From contig NZ_BPIJ01000001.1 in NCBI RefSeq assembly GCF_026004055.1, positions 806,001 to 870,000 of the forward strand: DNA of 64,000 nt. Reading direction: 5' to 3'. Made by a program: the position numbers and the translations under genes. Position 1 is the stretch's first letter; every line of letters begins with the position of its first letter. The DNA is from Meiothermus sp. Lineage in GTDB: Bacteria > Deinococcota > Deinococci > Deinococcales > Thermaceae. The notes under the pieces are model-generated. The model was not told the origin of the DNA, did no database searches, and saw nothing but the letters and a program-made list of their open reading frames with translations. Positions 41,872 to 54,263 of the stretch are shown one piece after another.

Positions 41872-41919
41872 CCCCTCCCTACCGCGTAGGGTGGGGGAAG
41901 GTATCAGGCAAGGCCCCCA
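41872..41919 (+). repeat. Repeat module with CCCTACCGCGTAGGG palindrome, copy B
   Basis: Matches 21795-21845 through the palindrome and the tail GTATCAGGCAAGGCCCCCA, with a 4-base deletion in the right arm. Confidence 0.75.
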
Positions 41920-42040
41920 GGCTGGCGTGTAGGGCAGCCACCCCACCTGGCCTCCCCTACGAGGTAGGGGAGGAACAGAGCAAGTCCAGGCGGGATTTGA
42001 TTTACTTCGTTGACCGTGCGGCCGGGGCTGTATGGGCTTT

Positions 42041-42073
42041 TAGAGCGCTCTTCACAAATATCGAGCCATCGGG
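42041..42073 (+). repeat. 33-bp repeat module (TAGAGCGCTCTTCACA type), copy B
   Basis: One base different from 21657-21689. Here it directly abuts the next module; in copy A the two are 241 bases apart. Confidence 0.8.
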
Positions 42074-42178
42074 TAAGAATCTTTTGTCCTGGACAGAGCA
42101 GTGGCCACCGGGAAACTCGAAACCCAAGCACCCGTGGGCCGGGCCCGGCCCACCCTTGGGTGCGTAACATGCGTCTGG
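42074..42178 (+). repeat. Repeat module (TAAGAATCTTTTGTCCTGGA type), copy B
   Basis: Counterpart of 21931-22023. Its centre holds a near-perfect GC palindrome (GTGGGCCGGG / CCCGGCCCAC) flanked by ACCCAAG and CTTGGGT, so it can form a long hairpin that copy A lacks. Confidence 0.8.
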
Positions 42179-42262
42179 ATCCAGAGATGTTCTCGTTTTC
42201 GTGGGCGGCCACGGCTGCGAAAGGGGCGTGAGCCTTCGGTAACGAACCAACCGACTCTGACA

Positions 42263-45058
42263 TTAGCCTTTTTTGAGGGCTTGTTTAAAAATCTGTGGAG
42301 CAAACTCCGCCACCGCCCGCAAAAACCCGGTAACCCCCCTGGCCCTTCCGGGGGTGATATAGACCGGCACCCCCAGGTTTTCGGCTTCCAAGCGCACCGG
42401 CTCCGATAGATCGTGGCCCACGTAACTGCTGATGATCATGAGGCCGTGGGCCCGCTCGAGTCGGCTTTGGATCCTCCGGATGATCTCCCGCCCGGCGGTG
42501 TGGTCGTCGGAGTCGAACCAATCGAGCCTCAAGCCCTGGTTCTCGAGAATGGGGGTCAGGCGGCTTCGGAGCTGGGTATGCCCCCCCACCACCACCAGGT
42601 ACTCTCCGTGAAAATGCGGCAACCCCTCACGCATCAGGCTGTCCGGGGTAACCTGGGCAAAGGTATCCGGGGTGCCCTCGAGCACCTGCAGCTTTTGCGA
42701 AGTAGCCTTGAGTTCCTCCAGATAGAACCCCAGCTCGGGGTCGTTGGGGTTCAGGTAAAGCAGGTTTCGCAATATTTCCCGCGAAAGCCCCAGGTCTTTC
42801 TCGAAGAAATAGGCCACCTCCAGGGCTTTGCGCCAGGTCTGGGCAGCTTTTTGGTAGGCCCCCACCCGCTCGTAGTGCTCGGCCAGGTCGTAGAGCACCT
42901 CGAGGGCCTCGGGGTTGCGCTCGTGCTCGGCCAGCAGCAGCCCTTCGGCGCCCAGGGCCTGCCCCGCGTTGTAGAGCGCAGCCAGGTACTGCCCCCGCAC
43001 CGTTTCGGCCTCGCTACTCTGGGAAAAGTTGCGGGAGAGGCGGTAGGCCAGCTCGAGGTGCTCGAGGGGCGGCTCGAGGGTGCGCTCGAGCCGTTGCACC
43101 AGCATTCTAAAAGCCTCCCAGGGCCCCTCCAGGGCCTCTACCAGCTTCACCACCGGCTCGATATCGTCGAAGGGCTCCAGCCCCGCCTCGCGCACCCCAC
43201 CCAGAAACTCCCGCGCCAAAACCCGCTCGCCGGCCTCCAGCGCCTCCTGGGCCAGGCTGTAAAGCCTCGAGACCGGGTAGGCCCGATGGGCATGGGCCCG
43301 CTTGTGTTCGCCCAGAATCTCGAGCAAGGGGAAGCCCAGCGAACGCTTGGCGCAGGCCAGCAGGTGGTAGGCCGTTCCGGCTGCCCCGCCCTTGAGCCCG
43401 CGCACCGCCCGCTCGAGGTAACGCACCGCCTCGCCGTACCGCCCCTCACGGTAGCGCAGCATCCCCAAGGCCAACAGGGCGGTCGCATCCTCGGCCCGCG
43501 CTACCGCGTCGGTCAGGTAGGGCTCGGCCTCTTTAAGGTCACTCAGGGGTACCCCATCCAGGGCTTCGGGCCCTTTTACCTTGAGACCGGCCAGGGCCAG
43601 GCCTAACGGGCCCTGCGACTCCCCCAACACATACAACTGCTGGGCGTAGCGGGCTGCGCGCCCCCACAACCCCTGCTGCAAGGCCGCCTGTAAGCCCAGC
43701 CGCAGCAGCGTGCGGGTCAAGAACTCGGGCGAGAGGTCTTCCACAAACTCCACCAGCCGGCTAACCTCGCTCCACTCCCCTTCCCGGGCAAGCCGCAGCA
43801 TGCGCTCCTCCAGGCGTTCTAGGGCCGTCTGCTGATAGACGTGGGCCTCGGGCAATCCGGACTCGTGAAGCTGGCGCAGGGCTTCCGACAGACGACCTTG
43901 GCCCAGATAAAGCTTCCCCAGGGCCAGCCGGTAACGCCCCCCTCGGCTGGCAAGCGCCTCCAGTCGCGGTAAAGCTCGCTGGGCATTGTTCAGCTCGGCC
44001 CAGCACAGTACCCGCAAGTCCTCGGCTTCCGGCAGGTGGGCCAGCGCCAGGGCTTCGTCGGCCTCGGCAAAACGCGAGAGCGCCCACAGAGCCCGTCCGC
44101 GCAGGTAAGCCAGTTCTCCTTCCACACCCGGAGGTAGACGGGTCAGCACCTCGGCATAGGCGCCAGCCTCGAGCAATGCCCGCACCTCGTCGGCCTCGGG
44201 CAGTGGAAGGGGATCTACCACGGGCGTTGGCGTCGTGGGCGAAGGCTGGGGCCTTTCCTCTGACAGAAGAGCCTCGGACAGTGCTAGCTCAACCGGCATC
44301 CGAGCCACAACCACCGCGTACTCTCCCTCGCCTACCGGGCCCACCTCAGTGAATCCAAGCTGTTGCAAGGCGCTTTGGACGGCCTCGAGGTTTTTGCCCA
44401 GAAAGGGGCCATGGCCATAGACCAGCAGCCCCCCCGGCTTGAGCAGCCCCTCAAGGCCCCGCAAGCGCTCCTGTAGCTCGAAGTGGCGAATAAAGTGATC
44501 GGGCTCCAACGCCTTCGGTAGGTCTTGCAAGTACCCTTCGGGCAAGCAGGACAGCAGGAGCACGGCATCCATGAGGGGCAAACCTTGCTGCCGAGGGAAC
44601 CACCCCTCGTGCCACTGCACGGCCTCACCGGTACGGGCTTGTCCTAGGGCCACCGCCGGGGCTACCCCCTCGAGGGCGTGCCATTCCAGCTCGGGCCGGG
44701 CTTCCCGCAAAAGATGCACCAACGCCCCGGTAAAAGCCCCCACCTCCAGCACCCGGCCTTGCTCGGGCAAAAGCGAGGGTATCGCCCCCACATAAAACTC
44801 GATGAAGGGCAGGTGCATGGCATAGACCAGGGCCTCGAGCCGCTCCTTGGGGTGGCTTAGCAGGATGGCATAAAAACTTCGCACCGCCTCTAAGTCGCCC
44901 CCCCGAGCCTCGAGGTAGGCCTTCCAGGCTTTCAGGATGGGTCTTCGTCGGGAAGGGCTCCCAATGCGCTTGGCCAGGGCCGCCTCGAATCGCCCCGGCG
45001 AGAGGGGGGCCTCGAGGTGAAACTGGCTACGAAAGTAGTGTTTGACGCGGGTATTCAC
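42263..45058 (-). CDS. Methyltransferase-like / TPR / DUF2325-like fusion protein
   Basis: GTG 45058, 6 bases after GGAGGT, gives 931 residues. Residues ~75-260 look like a SAM methyltransferase: glycine-rich RVLEVGAFTGALVHLLREA (~102), MDAVLLLSCLPEGYL and LKPGGLLVYGHGPFLGKN. Residues ~290-800 are a long run of TPR-like helical pairs (LSRFAEADEALALAHLPEAE, RYGEAVRYLERAVRGLKGG, YEDAE-like YERVGAYQKAAQTWRKALEV). The last ~115 residues (817-931; YLVVVGGHTQLRSRL, ERAHGLMIISSYVGHDLSEP, GVPVYITPGRARGVTGFLRA) resemble DUF2325, a small Rossmann-like domain of unknown role. I know no characterised protein with this order. It stands alone, flanked by repeats downstream. Confidence 0.8.
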   Translation of the reverse strand: MNTRVKHYFRSQFHLEAPLSPGRFEAALAKRIGSPSRRRPILKAWKAYLEARGGDLEAVRSFYAILLSHPKERLEALVYAMHLPFIEFYVGAIPSLLPEQGRVLEVGAFTGALVHLLREARPELEWHALEGVAPAVALGQARTGEAVQWHEGWFPRQQGLPLMDAVLLLSCLPEGYLQDLPKALEPDHFIRHFELQERLRGLEGLLKPGGLLVYGHGPFLGKNLEAVQSALQQLGFTEVGPVGEGEYAVVVARMPVELALSEALLSEERPQPSPTTPTPVVDPLPLPEADEVRALLEAGAYAEVLTRLPPGVEGELAYLRGRALWALSRFAEADEALALAHLPEAEDLRVLCWAELNNAQRALPRLEALASRGGRYRLALGKLYLGQGRLSEALRQLHESGLPEAHVYQQTALERLEERMLRLAREGEWSEVSRLVEFVEDLSPEFLTRTLLRLGLQAALQQGLWGRAARYAQQLYVLGESQGPLGLALAGLKVKGPEALDGVPLSDLKEAEPYLTDAVARAEDATALLALGMLRYREGRYGEAVRYLERAVRGLKGGAAGTAYHLLACAKRSLGFPLLEILGEHKRAHAHRAYPVSRLYSLAQEALEAGERVLAREFLGGVREAGLEPFDDIEPVVKLVEALEGPWEAFRMLVQRLERTLEPPLEHLELAYRLSRNFSQSSEAETVRGQYLAALYNAGQALGAEGLLLAEHERNPEALEVLYDLAEHYERVGAYQKAAQTWRKALEVAYFFEKDLGLSREILRNLLYLNPNDPELGFYLEELKATSQKLQVLEGTPDTFAQVTPDSLMREGLPHFHGEYLVVVGGHTQLRSRLTPILENQGLRLDWFDSDDHTAGREIIRRIQSRLERAHGLMIISSYVGHDLSEPVRLEAENLGVPVYITPGRARGVTGFLRAVAEFAPQIFKQALKKG

Positions 45059-45139: not shown

Positions 45140-46636
45140 TCAGGTCACAGAGGCCACAAACCACACCTTCTGCCCTGGGCGCAGTTGGGCCAGCCAGGGC
45201 AGATCGGCCGGGTGCACCCGCGCCGGTTTGGTGTAGCCGCCGATGCGGCCCCGGTCGTTGAGCAGCACAATGGGCTGCCCCTCGGGGGTCATCTGCACTG
45301 CCCCCAAGGGGGTGGCCTCGCTGATCAGTTCACCCCCCGGCACTGCCAGGCCCTGCAAGCGAAGCCCCATGCGATCTCCCGATGCCAGCTCATAGGGGGC
45401 CGCACACAGCGCCCGCATGGCCCCCGGGCTGTACTGAGGCCCCGGGAGCAGGCGAATACGCCGGGGCCGCAAGGGGGGCTGCGCAAAGCTAAATCCTGCT
45501 CGAGCCCCCCTAGGTTCTGCCACCCCCAGCACATCCCCGGCCTGCAAGGCCCGCCCCACCAACCCCTTCAGGTCGGTGCTGGCGCTGCCCCAAAAGCGCT
45601 CGCTCTCGAGGCCGCCGGCCAGCGCCAGGTAACCGCGCACCCCTTCCCCGGTGGGCCGGAAACTTAGCACATCGCCTTTTCGCAGGGCGAAGCTCTGGGC
45701 CCCCATCACCGGCTCGCCGTTAAGCAGCGGCAGCATCCCGTAGCCCGCAAAGGCCACCACCACCGGCTCGAGGGCGCTCAGCACCGGGCCGCGCAGGGTG
45801 AACTCGAGCAATGGCGCCTGCGCCGGGTTCCCCACCAGCCGGTTGGCAAGCCCCGCCGAACGCGCATCCAAGGCCCCTGAGGCCGCCAACCCAAAGCGCC
45901 CCGCCATCCGTCGCCCCTCATCCATCACCAGGTCAAGCAGGCCCGGCTCCTCCACCCGAAACACGGGGTGCTGCGGTTCGCCGGGCAGCAGGGGCCGCAC
46001 GGGGGGGGCTTCGGGGGTTGGGCCCTGGGTCGGCACAAAGCGCACCTGGTCGCCCGCTTCCAGCAAAAACACCCTTTCCCGCAGGGGATTGTAAACCTGG
46101 GTCAGGGCGGTTCCGATCAGGTGCCACCCCCCTGGGGAGGGCAGGGGGTAGATCCCGGTTTGGTTCCCCGCAATGGCGACTGCGTGGGCCGGCACCAACG
46201 GACGCGGGGTACTGCGACGGGGGAGCCGCAAGCGCTCCGGCAGAGGCCCCATAAAAGGAAACCCCGGCGTGAAGCCGGTAGCAAAGACCCGGTACAAAGG
46301 CTCGCTGTGTAGCCGTACCACTTCCTCAACTGAAAGGCCGGTCTCCTGCGCCACCCAAGGCAGGTCGGGCCCATCGTAGCGTACGGGCATCTCCACTTCC
46401 CTGCCTTGCGGTAAGGTAGGCAGTCGTGGCAGATGGCGCTCTACCCAGCGTTCCACCCTGGCCCTAAAAACCTTTTCGGCGTCGTACTCTATGTACAGGT
46501 TCACATACCCCGGCACCAGATCGGTGACCCCTGGCAGCAGGTCGGCCACCAGGGCCTGCACCAGTCGATGCATCTGGACGCTGGCCTGCGGGTCGAGCGC
46601 TTCGGCAAAAGGCAGGTAAAAACCGCTCAACGTCAT
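45140..46636 (-). CDS. pxpB: 5-oxoprolinase subunits B and C fused (PxpBC; KipI-KipA type)
   Basis: PxpABC hydrolyses 5-oxoproline to glutamate with ATP. Here B and C are one 498-residue chain (ATG 46636; a frame open to 46687 is not preferred). The first half has the PxpB/KipI signs: LVPGYVNLYIEYD, YRVFATGFTPGFPFMGPLPE, RRSTPRPLVPAHAVAIAGNQ and GIYPLPSPGGWHLIG. The second half has the PxpC/KipA biotin-carboxyl-like start PGLLDLVMDEGRRMAGRFGL, with GSQ-type ENANRLVGN-like GLANRLVGNPAQAPLLEFTL, and ends with ITYDDGRIGGYTKP-like LLNDRGRIGGYTKPA. It lies 78 bp after pxpA on the same strand. Fusion of B and C is known in other bacteria. Confidence 0.9.
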   Translation of the reverse strand: MTLSGFYLPFAEALDPQASVQMHRLVQALVADLLPGVTDLVPGYVNLYIEYDAEKVFRARVERWVERHLPRLPTLPQGREVEMPVRYDGPDLPWVAQETGLSVEEVVRLHSEPLYRVFATGFTPGFPFMGPLPERLRLPRRSTPRPLVPAHAVAIAGNQTGIYPLPSPGGWHLIGTALTQVYNPLRERVFLLEAGDQVRFVPTQGPTPEAPPVRPLLPGEPQHPVFRVEEPGLLDLVMDEGRRMAGRFGLAASGALDARSAGLANRLVGNPAQAPLLEFTLRGPVLSALEPVVVAFAGYGMLPLLNGEPVMGAQSFALRKGDVLSFRPTGEGVRGYLALAGGLESERFWGSASTDLKGLVGRALQAGDVLGVAEPRGARAGFSFAQPPLRPRRIRLLPGPQYSPGAMRALCAAPYELASGDRMGLRLQGLAVPGGELISEATPLGAVQMTPEGQPIVLLNDRGRIGGYTKPARVHPADLPWLAQLRPGQKVWFVASVT

Positions 46637-46714
46637 GGGACGCAGGATACCCCGTTCTAGCCCCACCGGGAGACTGACGGAATGCAATCTACTCCAGGGG
46701 AGATCCGCATTCGT

Positions 46715-47467
46715 TCAGTAGGTCTGGATGGCAATGCCCTCGGCCTGCAGAGCCTCCCGAACCGCTTTGGCTATCTCCACTGCGCTGGGATTATCCCCGT
46801 GGATGCAAAGTGTCTGGCAGCGCACCGAGACCACTCCCCCATCCACCGTTTCCACCTCACCCCGCATCACCATCTGCACCGCCCGCCGCGCCGCCTCGGC
46901 TGGGCTATGAATCCAGGCCCCCGCCAAACCTCGGGGTGCGAGCCGCCCATCGCGGCTGTACCCCCGCTCGGGGAAAGCCTCTGCTATGGTGCGAAGCCCA
47001 AGCTTCTGGGCCTCGGCCTCGAGGGGGGTGTTGGGCAATACCACCAAAGGAATGGCCGGGTCAAAGTCCCGGGCGGCCTGGGCAACGGCCCGCGCGGTCT
47101 CGGGGTCTTTGGTGGCCCGGTTGTAGAGGGCCCCGTGGGCCTTAATGTGGTGCAAAGGCATCTGAGCGACCCGCAAAAAAGCGCTCAGGGCCCCTACCTG
47201 GTAGAGCACGTCGGCATATACCTCGTCGGGCGTAGCCGCCAGCTCCCGCCGCCCAAAGCCCACCAGGTCGGGGAAACCCGGGTGCGCCCCCACCGCCACT
47301 CTGTTCTGTCGGGCGAGCTCGAGGGTGCGCTTTATGGTAAGGGGGTCGCCTGCATGAAACCCACAGGCCACATTGACCGAGCTAATCAGGGGGAACAGCT
47401 CCTCGTCCCGCCCTAGTTTCCAGTTGCCAAACGATTCGCCTGCATCGGCGTTTAGGTCTATTTGCAT
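46715..47467 (-). CDS. pxpA: 5-oxoprolinase subunit A (PxpA; LamB/YcsF family)
   Basis: The 250-residue protein opens with the family signature IDLNADAGESFGNW, then ISSVNVACGFHAGDPLTIKR, VAVGAHPGFPDLVGFGRREL, HIKAHGALYNRA and AWIHSPAEAARRA, which define PxpA. With PxpBC it forms the prokaryotic 5-oxoprolinase, removing a damaged form of glutamate or glutamine that arises faster at high temperature. The gene follows TRAP transporter genes with a 110-bp gap that contains a short repeat-like stretch. Confidence 0.95.
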   Translation of the reverse strand: MQIDLNADAGESFGNWKLGRDEELFPLISSVNVACGFHAGDPLTIKRTLELARQNRVAVGAHPGFPDLVGFGRRELAATPDEVYADVLYQVGALSAFLRVAQMPLHHIKAHGALYNRATKDPETARAVAQAARDFDPAIPLVVLPNTPLEAEAQKLGLRTIAEAFPERGYSRDGRLAPRGLAGAWIHSPAEAARRAVQMVMRGEVETVDGGVVSVRCQTLCIHGDNPSAVEIAKAVREALQAEGIAIQTY

Positions 47468-51710: not shown

Positions 51711-54263
51711 CTAGCCTACGCTCCCCTCACGGCACACATCCTTTACGCTACAGCTACGGCAACGAAAGCCGGGGTTGGGTTTCACCACGCCAGTTTGGTA
51801 TTGAGCGTGGGCCTGCTGCACCCGCTCCAGAAGGTTTTCCAGTGCATTCCAAAGCCGCTCGATGGGCTTTCCATACACCATAATCGGCTGACCCAGCACC
51901 GGCCAGGCCCAGATATACACCTGTCGGATGCGACCTCTGTAAGTCTTGAGCAAGTACCCAGCGGCCCAGCGCTCGCTCCAGCGATCGCGCACCTGCTCTT
52001 CGGCTTCTTCGGGAGGGGTGTTGGGAGCCACAAAGCGATACAGATGGGCTTCGGAACCTTTGCGCAAAACCCCATCCAACCGAGCATGTAGACCTGCTCC
52101 CTCGAGCTTGAAACCCAGGTTCAGCTCGCCTAAAAGGGGGTAATGATGCCGCAACCAACCCTCAGCCTGGGGAAACTGCCGAGAAAGAGCCTCGAGACGT
52201 GCAGGCACCAGGTTTTCCTTGCGCAGTTCGTGTACAAGCTGCTGCCATCCCTCGAGCTCGGGCTCTCTAAGGCCAAGCTGCTCGGCCCAAAGCTGAAAAC
52301 CACACTCTCGGTAGCGTCGCAGGCTCTCAACCGAGGGCGGGCCCAAAGAAACCCGGCCCAGCGGGGCCTGGTAGCCCTCGCTCTGGGCCAGCTCCAGCAA
52401 GCTGGCCGAGGGCAGCTTGGGCAGGTAGGGCGGCCTGGCCTGCTGGAGGAGGAGGGGCTCGGGCTCGAGGGGCCCCTCCTGGCTGGCCTCGGGGTAGGTA
52501 ACGATCACTTCATCGGCGCGGGCCTGGAGTTCCTGCAAGAGCAGCCGATCGCGCCCCAGAAAACGCTTGGGCAACAGGCCCCCGGCCTGCCGCAGGGCTT
52601 CCTCCAGGCTTGCTCTCAGCTCCTCGGGCACGAAATAGTCTTCTTCCTCGCCGGTGCTGTAGGAGCCCTCCACCGCGTAGGTCAGGTAGAGTTTCTTCCA
52701 GCGCTGCCCCGAGGCCAGGGTAGGCGTGAGCAGGGCTACCCCTCCCGGCGGGCGATGCGGCTCGTAGGTCTCGGCCAGCAGGGCCGCCCACCAGTGGCGA
52801 AAATCGGGGCCGGTGGCGATGCGGTGGGCCTCCAAGGCCCGCTCCATCAGGATGGCCCGACGGGGGCTGTGCCGCACCTCGGGGAGTGAGTCCAGGAGTT
52901 CCTGGGCCCAGGCCAGCGAAGGGTGCAGACCGGAGGCATGAAGGGAGTCAAAAGCTGACCCTTCCTCGCCCGGCGGCTTCAGGCGCCCCAGCCAGGAGGC
53001 CCAGACTGTCTGCATCCCTATTTCGGTCGCCAGCCGGGTGATGGCCTCGAGGCCTACCAGACTGCGTTCCAGGGCCACCCGACCCAACGGAGCCAGGTCG
53101 GGCACGGCCAGCAAGCGGGTGGGAGTGGGGTAGTCGGGCAGCTCGAGCAGCTCGAGCAAAAGCCGCCCCTCGGGGGTATCGGCAGCGGTACCGGCCCGCA
53201 TATCCACCAGGGGAAGTCCATACTCGTCGGCCAAGGTCAGGAGTGCCGGAATCCGCGACTCCGGCGCCACCACCGCAATATCCAGAGGTTTTAGCCCTTG
53301 CGCCAGGTCGCGCTTGATTGAGCGCAACACCCAGCGGGCCTCGCTGACCGGGTTCTGGGCACGGTAGGTCTGGGTGTGGATGGTTCGGGGTGCTAGGTGC
53401 TCGTCCGGCACCAACCCCGGCGGGGCTTCCGGCAAGCTGACCCAGACCGGAATGTGGCAGGAGAGAGCCCGCAAGAGGCGAAGCTCGAGCACCCCCAGCT
53501 CGCGGAAACCGTCCACAATCAGGAGGTCAGGCTCGAGGCCGACAGGCGCGAGCCCACTGCCCGAGGAGGCGGGTTCTACAGATTGCGTAGGCCTCGTCTG
53601 ACGCTCGAGGCCGACAGGCGCGAGCCCACTGCCCGAGGAGGCGGGTTCTACAGATTGCGTAGGCCTCGTCTGACGCTCGAGGCCGACAGGCGCGAGCCCA
53701 CTGCCCGAGGAGGCGGGTTCTACAGATTGCGTAGGCCTCGATTTTTGCTCGAGCGAAGCCTGTCCCTGCTCCAGCAAGGCCAGCGCCCCGGCACGAAAGT
53801 CGTCGTAGTCCCAGCGACCCCAGCTCGCCTTGAGTTCCTCGTAGCGGGTGTAGACCTTTTGCAGACGCCGGACCTCGGGGCTGTGGGACGGTAGGGCCTC
53901 GGGGTTGACCCCATTGCGTTTGGCCTCGGCGATGGCACGGGCAAACAAGCGGGCCTCACCAGGGCTGGGCAAGGGGGCCTCGTCGGACATCAGCGCCTCT
54001 CCTACCAGCGCCACCCGGCCCGGCCCGGTCAGAATGGGCTTGAGGCCAAAGCTAGCAGCCAGCAGCCGGTAGTAAAGCTGTTGCGAGGTAAGCACCTCGA
54101 GGCCCAGCACCGCGCCCTTCTGGGTAGCTCGTCGGTAGACATAGGCTTTTTGGACGGGCAAACAAACCCACCATACCCGCTTGCGCTGTTGCAGGTAAGA
54201 GTGTGCGACCTCGAGCAAGCGGGTGGTCTTGCCCGAGGCCGGAGGGCCGACGAGGAGGTGCAC
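51711..54263 (-). CDS. AddB-like recombination protein with degenerate nuclease site
   Basis: The 850-residue protein begins with a helicase-like Walker A (VGPPASGKTTRLLEVAHS) and has a Walker-B-like LLIVDGFRELG after an inserted repeat region. The C-terminal domain has the four-cysteine pattern of AddB iron-sulphur nucleases: C654 (RRYRECGFQLW) and C835, C838, C844 (FRCRSCSVKDVC). The nuclease site has D730 (ARLDGV), but where D/E-x-K should follow it reads LYRFVAP (741-747), so the nuclease looks dead. AddAB-type complexes process double-strand ends for recombination. The UvrD-like gene two genes away may be its partner. Family call good; activity inferred. Confidence 0.82.
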   Translation of the reverse strand: MHLLVGPPASGKTTRLLEVAHSYLQQRKRVWWVCLPVQKAYVYRRATQKGAVLGLEVLTSQQLYYRLLAASFGLKPILTGPGRVALVGEALMSDEAPLPSPGEARLFARAIAEAKRNGVNPEALPSHSPEVRRLQKVYTRYEELKASWGRWDYDDFRAGALALLEQGQASLEQKSRPTQSVEPASSGSGLAPVGLERQTRPTQSVEPASSGSGLAPVGLERQTRPTQSVEPASSGSGLAPVGLEPDLLIVDGFRELGVLELRLLRALSCHIPVWVSLPEAPPGLVPDEHLAPRTIHTQTYRAQNPVSEARWVLRSIKRDLAQGLKPLDIAVVAPESRIPALLTLADEYGLPLVDMRAGTAADTPEGRLLLELLELPDYPTPTRLLAVPDLAPLGRVALERSLVGLEAITRLATEIGMQTVWASWLGRLKPPGEEGSAFDSLHASGLHPSLAWAQELLDSLPEVRHSPRRAILMERALEAHRIATGPDFRHWWAALLAETYEPHRPPGGVALLTPTLASGQRWKKLYLTYAVEGSYSTGEEEDYFVPEELRASLEEALRQAGGLLPKRFLGRDRLLLQELQARADEVIVTYPEASQEGPLEPEPLLLQQARPPYLPKLPSASLLELAQSEGYQAPLGRVSLGPPSVESLRRYRECGFQLWAEQLGLREPELEGWQQLVHELRKENLVPARLEALSRQFPQAEGWLRHHYPLLGELNLGFKLEGAGLHARLDGVLRKGSEAHLYRFVAPNTPPEEAEEQVRDRWSERWAAGYLLKTYRGRIRQVYIWAWPVLGQPIMVYGKPIERLWNALENLLERVQQAHAQYQTGVVKPNPGFRCRSCSVKDVCREGSVG
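53531..53740. repeat. 72-bp in-frame tandem repeat, about 2.9 copies
   Basis: Units start at 53531, 53603 and 53675 (period 72), identical by eye, the third stopping at about 53740. Each adds 24 residues (RPTQSVEPASSGSGLAPVGL and on) to the AddB-like protein, residues ~175-245. Each unit is bounded by CGAGGCC and its inverse GGCCTCG. Confidence 0.95.

Follow-up and report, generated by a model that had tools for sequence, protein, structure and literature searches.

What might a single bacterial protein do that joins a methyltransferase-like domain, a long array of TPR repeats and a DUF2325 domain? The question is raised by one gene in a 64,000-nucleotide stretch of Meiothermus sp. DNA (hereafter the window), in which a sequence-only reading had placed these parts, in this order, in one 931-residue protein. 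Profiles, repeats and models bear the order out, and the C-terminal motifs that had been quoted are present, with VVVGGHTQLRSRL at residues 822-834 and ISSYVGHDLSE at 876-886. The coding sequence runs on the minus strand, a point that the earlier reading had left out, from 45058, where it begins with a GTG codon downstream of a GGAGGTG ribosome site, to 42263, and its domain anatomy is well supported (Table 1). We conclude that the gene encodes a real and conserved fusion, so far uncharacterised, that combines known domains in a new way. Our best reading of the whole, to which we give about an even chance of being right, is a SAM-dependent methyltransferase with a TPR-docked target and a DUF2325 domain that binds a small, probably anionic ligand. 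A 119-residue open reading frame that begins at the stop of the gene (41904-42263, minus strand) has no Pfam match and is probably not a gene.

Table 1. Features of the fusion gene and its upstream neighbours (window coordinates).
Feature	Position	Strand	Basis or remark
Whole gene	42263..45058	-	931 codons + stop; orthologues back the reading frame
Residues 1-92, N-terminal extension, five helices (3-13, 21-31, 35-50, 56-67, 75-92)	44783..45058	-	AF2 model, alignment
Residues 93-258, class I (Rossmann) SAM-methyltransferase domain	44285..44782	-	profiles, AF2, Foldseek, VIA
Motif I VLEVGAFTG (103-111); E105, G107, G111 invariant	44726..44752	-	alignment
Residues 259-290, variable linker	44189..44284	-	conservation, codon-position divergence
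Residues 291-795, TPR/alpha-solenoid	42674..44188	-	profile matches, consensus repeat scan
HKRAHA (585-590) within TPR region, nearly invariant	43289..43306	-	alignment
Residues 796-931, C-terminal segment with DUF2325 (PF10087) domain (~813-931)	42266..42673	-	profile, model
GGHTQLRSR (825-833), loop and helix start after strand 1, nearly invariant	42560..42586	-	alignment, model
SSYVGHDLSEP (877-887), loop after strand 3, nearly invariant	42398..42430	-	alignment, model
PGRARG (903-908), loop after strand 4, invariant	42335..42352	-	alignment, model
Fused 5-oxoprolinase B+C type carboxyltransferase domains (CT_C_D + CT_A_B), upstream, co-directional	45140..46687	-	Pfam
LamB/YcsF (PxpA-like) gene, upstream, co-directional	46715..47467	-	

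The HMM search for each domain and for the full architecture that had been proposed for Deinococcota places the fusion in Thermaceae and in genera g8 and g12 of the sister family. Among the 111 Deinococcota genomes covered by the profile search (50 of them Thermaceae), an orthologue was found in 48 of the 50 Thermaceae genomes, two of these (G074 and G076) having fragments only, from low-quality assemblies, and in all seven genomes of g8 and g12; it was absent from seven genomes of the sister-family genus g19 and from families f2, f3 and f5. The full-length orthologues, from nearly all Thermaceae and the seven sister-family genomes, are 49-79% identical and free of internal stops. The gene is single copy, with no second copy in the window genome even at E 10, and beyond the orthologues the same scan gave just short matches of methyltransferase or TPR type, at E of about 1e-6 to 1e-9. 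Outside Thermales, nothing came from a scan of 84,980 species genomes with a 23-sequence alignment and two peptide patterns, both from the TPR region, and tblastn with both protein ends found no relatives on plasmids. The gene is thus a core gene of its lineage (Thermus and Meiothermus), and these searches found it in part of Thermales only. In one genome (G016, C1 near 2110190, L015) the orthologue is split just before GGHTQ by a frameshift in a GGGAGGG/GGGGGG run that is one base short, with the remainder intact, which looks like a sequencing or slippage indel.

Codon-position divergence shows that the gene is under purifying selection and is not a chance open reading frame. The ratio of third- to second-position divergence is about 2-7 or higher for the DUF2325 domain (with L002, for instance, 0.37 to 0.05) and about 1.5-4 for the TPR part. 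Of all parts of the protein, the DUF2325 domain also evolves most slowly, its second-position divergence being 0.03-0.18 compared with 0.16-0.35 in the methyltransferase domain.

AF2 fold models were made for the two end domains separately. The model of residues 1-270 (pLDDT 89) has five helices and then, in the class I methyltransferase order, seven strands (102-106, 125-130, 147-151, 163-169, 206-215, 237-244 and 247-253). Foldseek with this model returned 931 matches at E<=1e-3 (best 3.2e-11), the best 50 of which are all methyltransferases or methyltransferase-fold proteins, and VIA returned 1000 of 1000 chains at Z 8 or more, with Z up to 18.2 (rmsd 4.0 over 184). The window protein's own Pfam methyltransferase match is very weak (Methyltransf_12, E 0.27); the 23 orthologues match Methyltransf_12 in 18 cases (best 1.1e-5), Methyltransf_25 in 14 and Methyltransf_23 in 11. 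A PDB sequence search gave weak matches to the methyltransferase part only (HemK, 8.7e-5). Positions of the SAM site are kept in 21 of 21 orthologues: those of motif I, an acid at 130 (E or D), D164 and P208-G209-G210. The LKPGG segment is conserved, as is YGHGPFLGK after strand 5. The sequence-only reading had allowed that the N-terminal part might fold without a SAM site; instead, its model is of class I type and its SAM-site motifs are conserved. Judged by this model, the N-terminal part is most readily taken as a class I SAM methyltransferase domain, apparently intact.

With Methyltransf_12-type class I enzymes such as ECA1738 (PDB 2p7h/2p7i) the domain shares the fold (Z 16.4-16.5) and the motif I form LE-x-G-x-F-x-G, but it is only 18% identical to ECA1738 and adds both the fusion and the YGHGPFLGK segment. 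The place of NPPY/DPPY-type motifs is occupied by D164-x-x-L-x-L-S-x-x-P-E, in keeping with the earlier remark that this half lacks an obvious substrate motif. Two candidate identities were rejected: the genome's PrmC/HemK (TIGR03534), for which the real PrmC lies at C2:515848 (228.3 bits) and the NPPY motif is missing from the fusion, and its MenG/UbiE (TIGR01934), for which the real MenG lies at C1:571980 (261.7 bits). Because the genome encodes both separately, the fusion is not a missing version of either.

Since the methyltransferase domain is less conserved than the DUF2325 domain, the protein may have a main role other than methyl transfer. One explanation is that the methyltransferase fold senses SAM only, or nothing, and serves docking, with the DUF2325 domain as the working part; the lower conservation fits this, as does the lack of a recognisable catalytic motif after strand 4. 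However, in addition to the invariant SAM-contact positions, polar residues near the expected active site are invariant (E75, Y79, H82, S170, E174, H216 and K222, the first three of which, together with F62 and Y63, are the invariant residues of the N-terminal extension), and this is more than a decayed enzyme would be expected to keep. We therefore consider such a pseudo-enzyme quite unlikely and retain the reading as an active methyltransferase.

The middle part of the protein matches mostly TPR-type models in Pfam, NCBIfam and the PDB, with Pfam TPR models at E 1e-4 to 1e-2 for residues 506-553 of the window protein. In a consensus scan averaged over 21 orthologues, repeats at 374-407, 525-558 and 719-752 exceed the 95th percentile of shuffle maxima, those at 314-347 and 668-701 fall just under this threshold, and weaker ones start at 413, 448 and 596. 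The estimate of about 500 residues of TPR thus finds support at 291-795, as three clear repeats, two borderline ones and several degenerate ones. The region also contains an unusual motif, HKRAHA, in which H585, K586, A588, H589 and A590 are identical in 21 of 21 orthologues. TPR arrays mostly bind proteins, and the TPR part of the fusion would be expected to do the same.

By layout, the nearest studied kind are the CheR-TPR proteins: FrzF of Myxococcus xanthus and WspC of Pseudomonas putida likewise carry a helical N-terminus, a class I methyltransferase and TPR repeats in one chain (PMC2535941, PMC3447774). The fusion differs from them in its solenoid of about 500 TPR-like residues, as CheR-TPR proteins frequently carry two repeats (PMC3447774), in its lack of a CheR profile match, in its extra DUF2325 domain and in its occurrence in genomes without chemoreceptors. 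Two MCP-signal proteins are encoded at C1:11550-15513 of the window genome, and two were also found in nearly all other Meiothermus genomes searched. A search of the window genome for the CheR domain (PF01739) found nothing at E<=1, nor did the Pfam scan of the window. We considered the possibility that the fusion is a chemoreceptor methyltransferase standing in for the missing CheR, given the equal order of helical domain, methyltransferase and TPR and the presence of two MCP-signal proteins per Meiothermus genome. However, the protein gives no match to the CheR profile, and no MCP domain occurs in the sister-family genomes G039, G043 and G047, which carry the gene; among the controls, the same holds for Thermus composti (L095). 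CheR-type chemoreceptor methylation is thus largely refuted, and we regard it as highly improbable. The mechanism that we favour would borrow from CheR-TPR proteins the logic of TPR-directed methylation, not family membership.

Turning to the C-terminus, the DUF2325 family matches the whole window protein at E 1.7e-6, and the domain reaches 33.2 bits when scanned by itself and 33.7 bits in the scan of the genome, the cut-off being 33.6. The match recurs in 23 of 23 orthologues (best 3.8e-10) and lies above the cut-off in 26 of the 54 matched genomes (best 40.5 bits). The earlier reading had left room for a match to another known family; DUF2325 beats every other Pfam family here, the next being TIR_2, which is weak (20 of 23 orthologues, best E 0.0086). 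No match was found in PHROGs and none of note in the PDB sequence search. These profile matches, which fall close to or above the cut-off, point to a divergent DUF2325 domain at the C-terminus.

DUF2325 is present across the bacterial kingdom (PMC9426514), and no biochemical function for it was found in the literature searched. The domain is known at about 100-160 residues in stand-alone proteins, such as Cj1384c of Campylobacter (PMC9426514) and two proteins of 102 and 158 residues from plasmid records (L111 and L112); here it is fused to the methyltransferase-TPR part. Likenesses to these proteins are its length, its Pfam fold class, its strand-1 loop (Gly-Gly in L111) and a His after strand 3. 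The invariant G825-G826 and H882 align with L111 (both) and L112 (His), with weak scores in single-pair hhalign, H882 falling on the His of ISHD or IEHG. Cj1384c has seven cysteines (PMC9426514), whereas the domain of the fusion has none in 23 of 23 orthologues and carries the extra invariant residues E886, R905 and R907. A 564-residue Priestia plasmid protein (L113:88-1779), which combines a region resembling a coiled coil with a weak DUF2325-like match at its C-terminus (E 0.0067), suggests that other DUF2325 fusions exist.

For the C-terminus, the best of five models (pLDDT 80, against 50-68 for the rest) shows an alpha/beta domain with four strands. Conserved segments, H and R residues included, come after strands 1-4 in order: GGHTQLRSR, D849/D851 (DSD/DAD), SSYVGHDLSEP and PGRARG. 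Because each follows a strand, all should line the same side of the fold, where alpha/beta domains of this sort usually bind their ligands, and the domain is predicted to carry a strongly conserved, ligand-pocket-like site.

The top VIA rows for the C-terminal model are a 2-deoxyribosyltransferase (Z 10.1), MilB (Z 9.9) and a TIR domain (Z 9.4), and Foldseek places the T. thermophilus Argonaute first (E 9.8e-4, for a match whose region is not given). Together with the weak TIR_2 matches and with the invariant E886, which follows the strand-3 loop, these could mean that the domain is an enzyme or binder of nucleotides or nucleic-acid ends, akin to nucleoside 2-deoxyribosyltransferase, DNPH1 or MilB N-glycosidases, TIR NADases or the Argonaute MID domain, and that the methyltransferase acts on RNA or a nucleotide. 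However, response regulators, sugar-binding proteins and PTS IIB domains nearly tie at Z 8-9, so the fold search is not specific, and these matches may reflect no more than a common flavodoxin-like arrangement. In addition, the TIR_2 match (832-878) ends short of the catalytic-Glu part, and the PADLOC anti-phage defence profiles gave zero families for the protein. We give this alternative little credence, and continue with the DUF2325 domain as a putative binder of a small ligand.

The sequence-only reading held that the gene stands alone in the chromosome, which is not so. In the window it is the last gene of a co-directional 5-oxoprolinase/TRAP run; the fused 5-oxoprolinase gene, which is conserved at most Meiothermus loci, ends 81 bp before it, and a weak promoter-like site lies between the two (45123-45095). 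In Thermus the order is GNAT acetyltransferase, 2-hydroxyacid-dehydrogenase-like gene (a label from our own reading of the sequence), DHS homologue (cdmS), the fusion gene, mqnD, crp and bshC, with cdmS, the fusion gene and mqnD in a tight co-directional cluster in which mqnD starts at the end of the fusion gene or within a few bases of it. Genus g4 has another DHS homologue immediately upstream, with 29% identity to that of Thermus, and in many Meiothermus the TRAP/5-oxoprolinase run separates this g4-type gene from the fusion gene; the window genome carries its DHS gene on a separate contig (C2:339578-340546). That two such distinct homologues share the upstream position in different genera (L063, L064, L066 and others) looks like an in situ replacement of one by the other. 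The sister family has no DHS homologue and retains the GNAT gene before the fusion gene, mostly followed by the dehydrogenase-like gene. Gene order around the fusion is thus partly conserved, and no firm pathway follows from it. Elsewhere in the window (53531-53740), a 72-bp unit is present in 2.9 copies at 100% identity, in frame within an 850-residue open reading frame (RPTQSVEPASSGSGLAPVGLE units), and is a recent in-frame expansion.

In T. thermophilus HB8, TTHA1570 is cdmS, the caldomycin synthase, an agmatine-coupling polyamine enzyme and DHS homologue whose product is made in homospermidine synthesis (PMC10981699); MqnD is TTHA1568, as cited in PMC7683729, and a CRP protein is TTHA1567 (PMC7662524). 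Because the neighbours are numbered in this way, the HB8 orthologue of the fusion should be TTHA1569. The papers searched make no mention of TTHA1569, and the literature searched yielded no paper on the fusion, which agrees with its earlier description as unstudied.

These neighbours bear on a further alternative, a small-molecule methyltransferase in which the N-terminal helices form a lid on a closed pocket, the TPR and DUF2325 parts serve for anchoring or substrate channelling, and the reaction is perhaps linked with polyamine (cdmS) or menaquinone (mqnD) metabolism. The nearest structural matches in VIA are the O- and C-methyltransferases SibL, RedM, PigF and MmcR, and since the alignment reaches into the helices that precede the Rossmann domain, the substrate may be a small molecule; the Thermus cluster with cdmS and mqnD points the same way. 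However, a 500-residue TPR array would be unusual for such an enzyme, the genome has its own MenG/UbiE, the gene is kept in the sister family without any DHS homologue, and the window genome has its DHS gene on another contig. We consider this alternative unlikely, and return to a methyltransferase that acts on a TPR-docked target.

In this favoured mechanism the enzyme would be cytoplasmic, and its N-terminal helices and Rossmann domain would bind SAM and transfer the methyl group to a target that is docked by the TPR solenoid and is most probably a protein or a complex of proteins. The DUF2325 domain would bind a small, probably anionic ligand, and this ligand would gate the reaction or direct it. 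A TPR part that steers methylation has a precedent in FrzF, in which it controls which sites are methylated, narrowing methylation from three glutamates to one (PMC2535941).

More tentatively, the fusion may be a regulated protein-methylation module, fixed in Thermaceae, in which the DUF2325 domain is the ligand sensor and the TPR part the scaffold of the methyltransferase; it might respond to the state of polyamines or nucleotides and modify a core complex of proteins. If this is true, it would be the first function for a DUF2325 domain, here found in one polypeptide with a testable chemistry (SAM) and a protein-binding scaffold. T. thermophilus HB8 is genetically tractable, and the fusion, one of its core genes, may offer a route to both the methylation target and the DUF2325 ligand.
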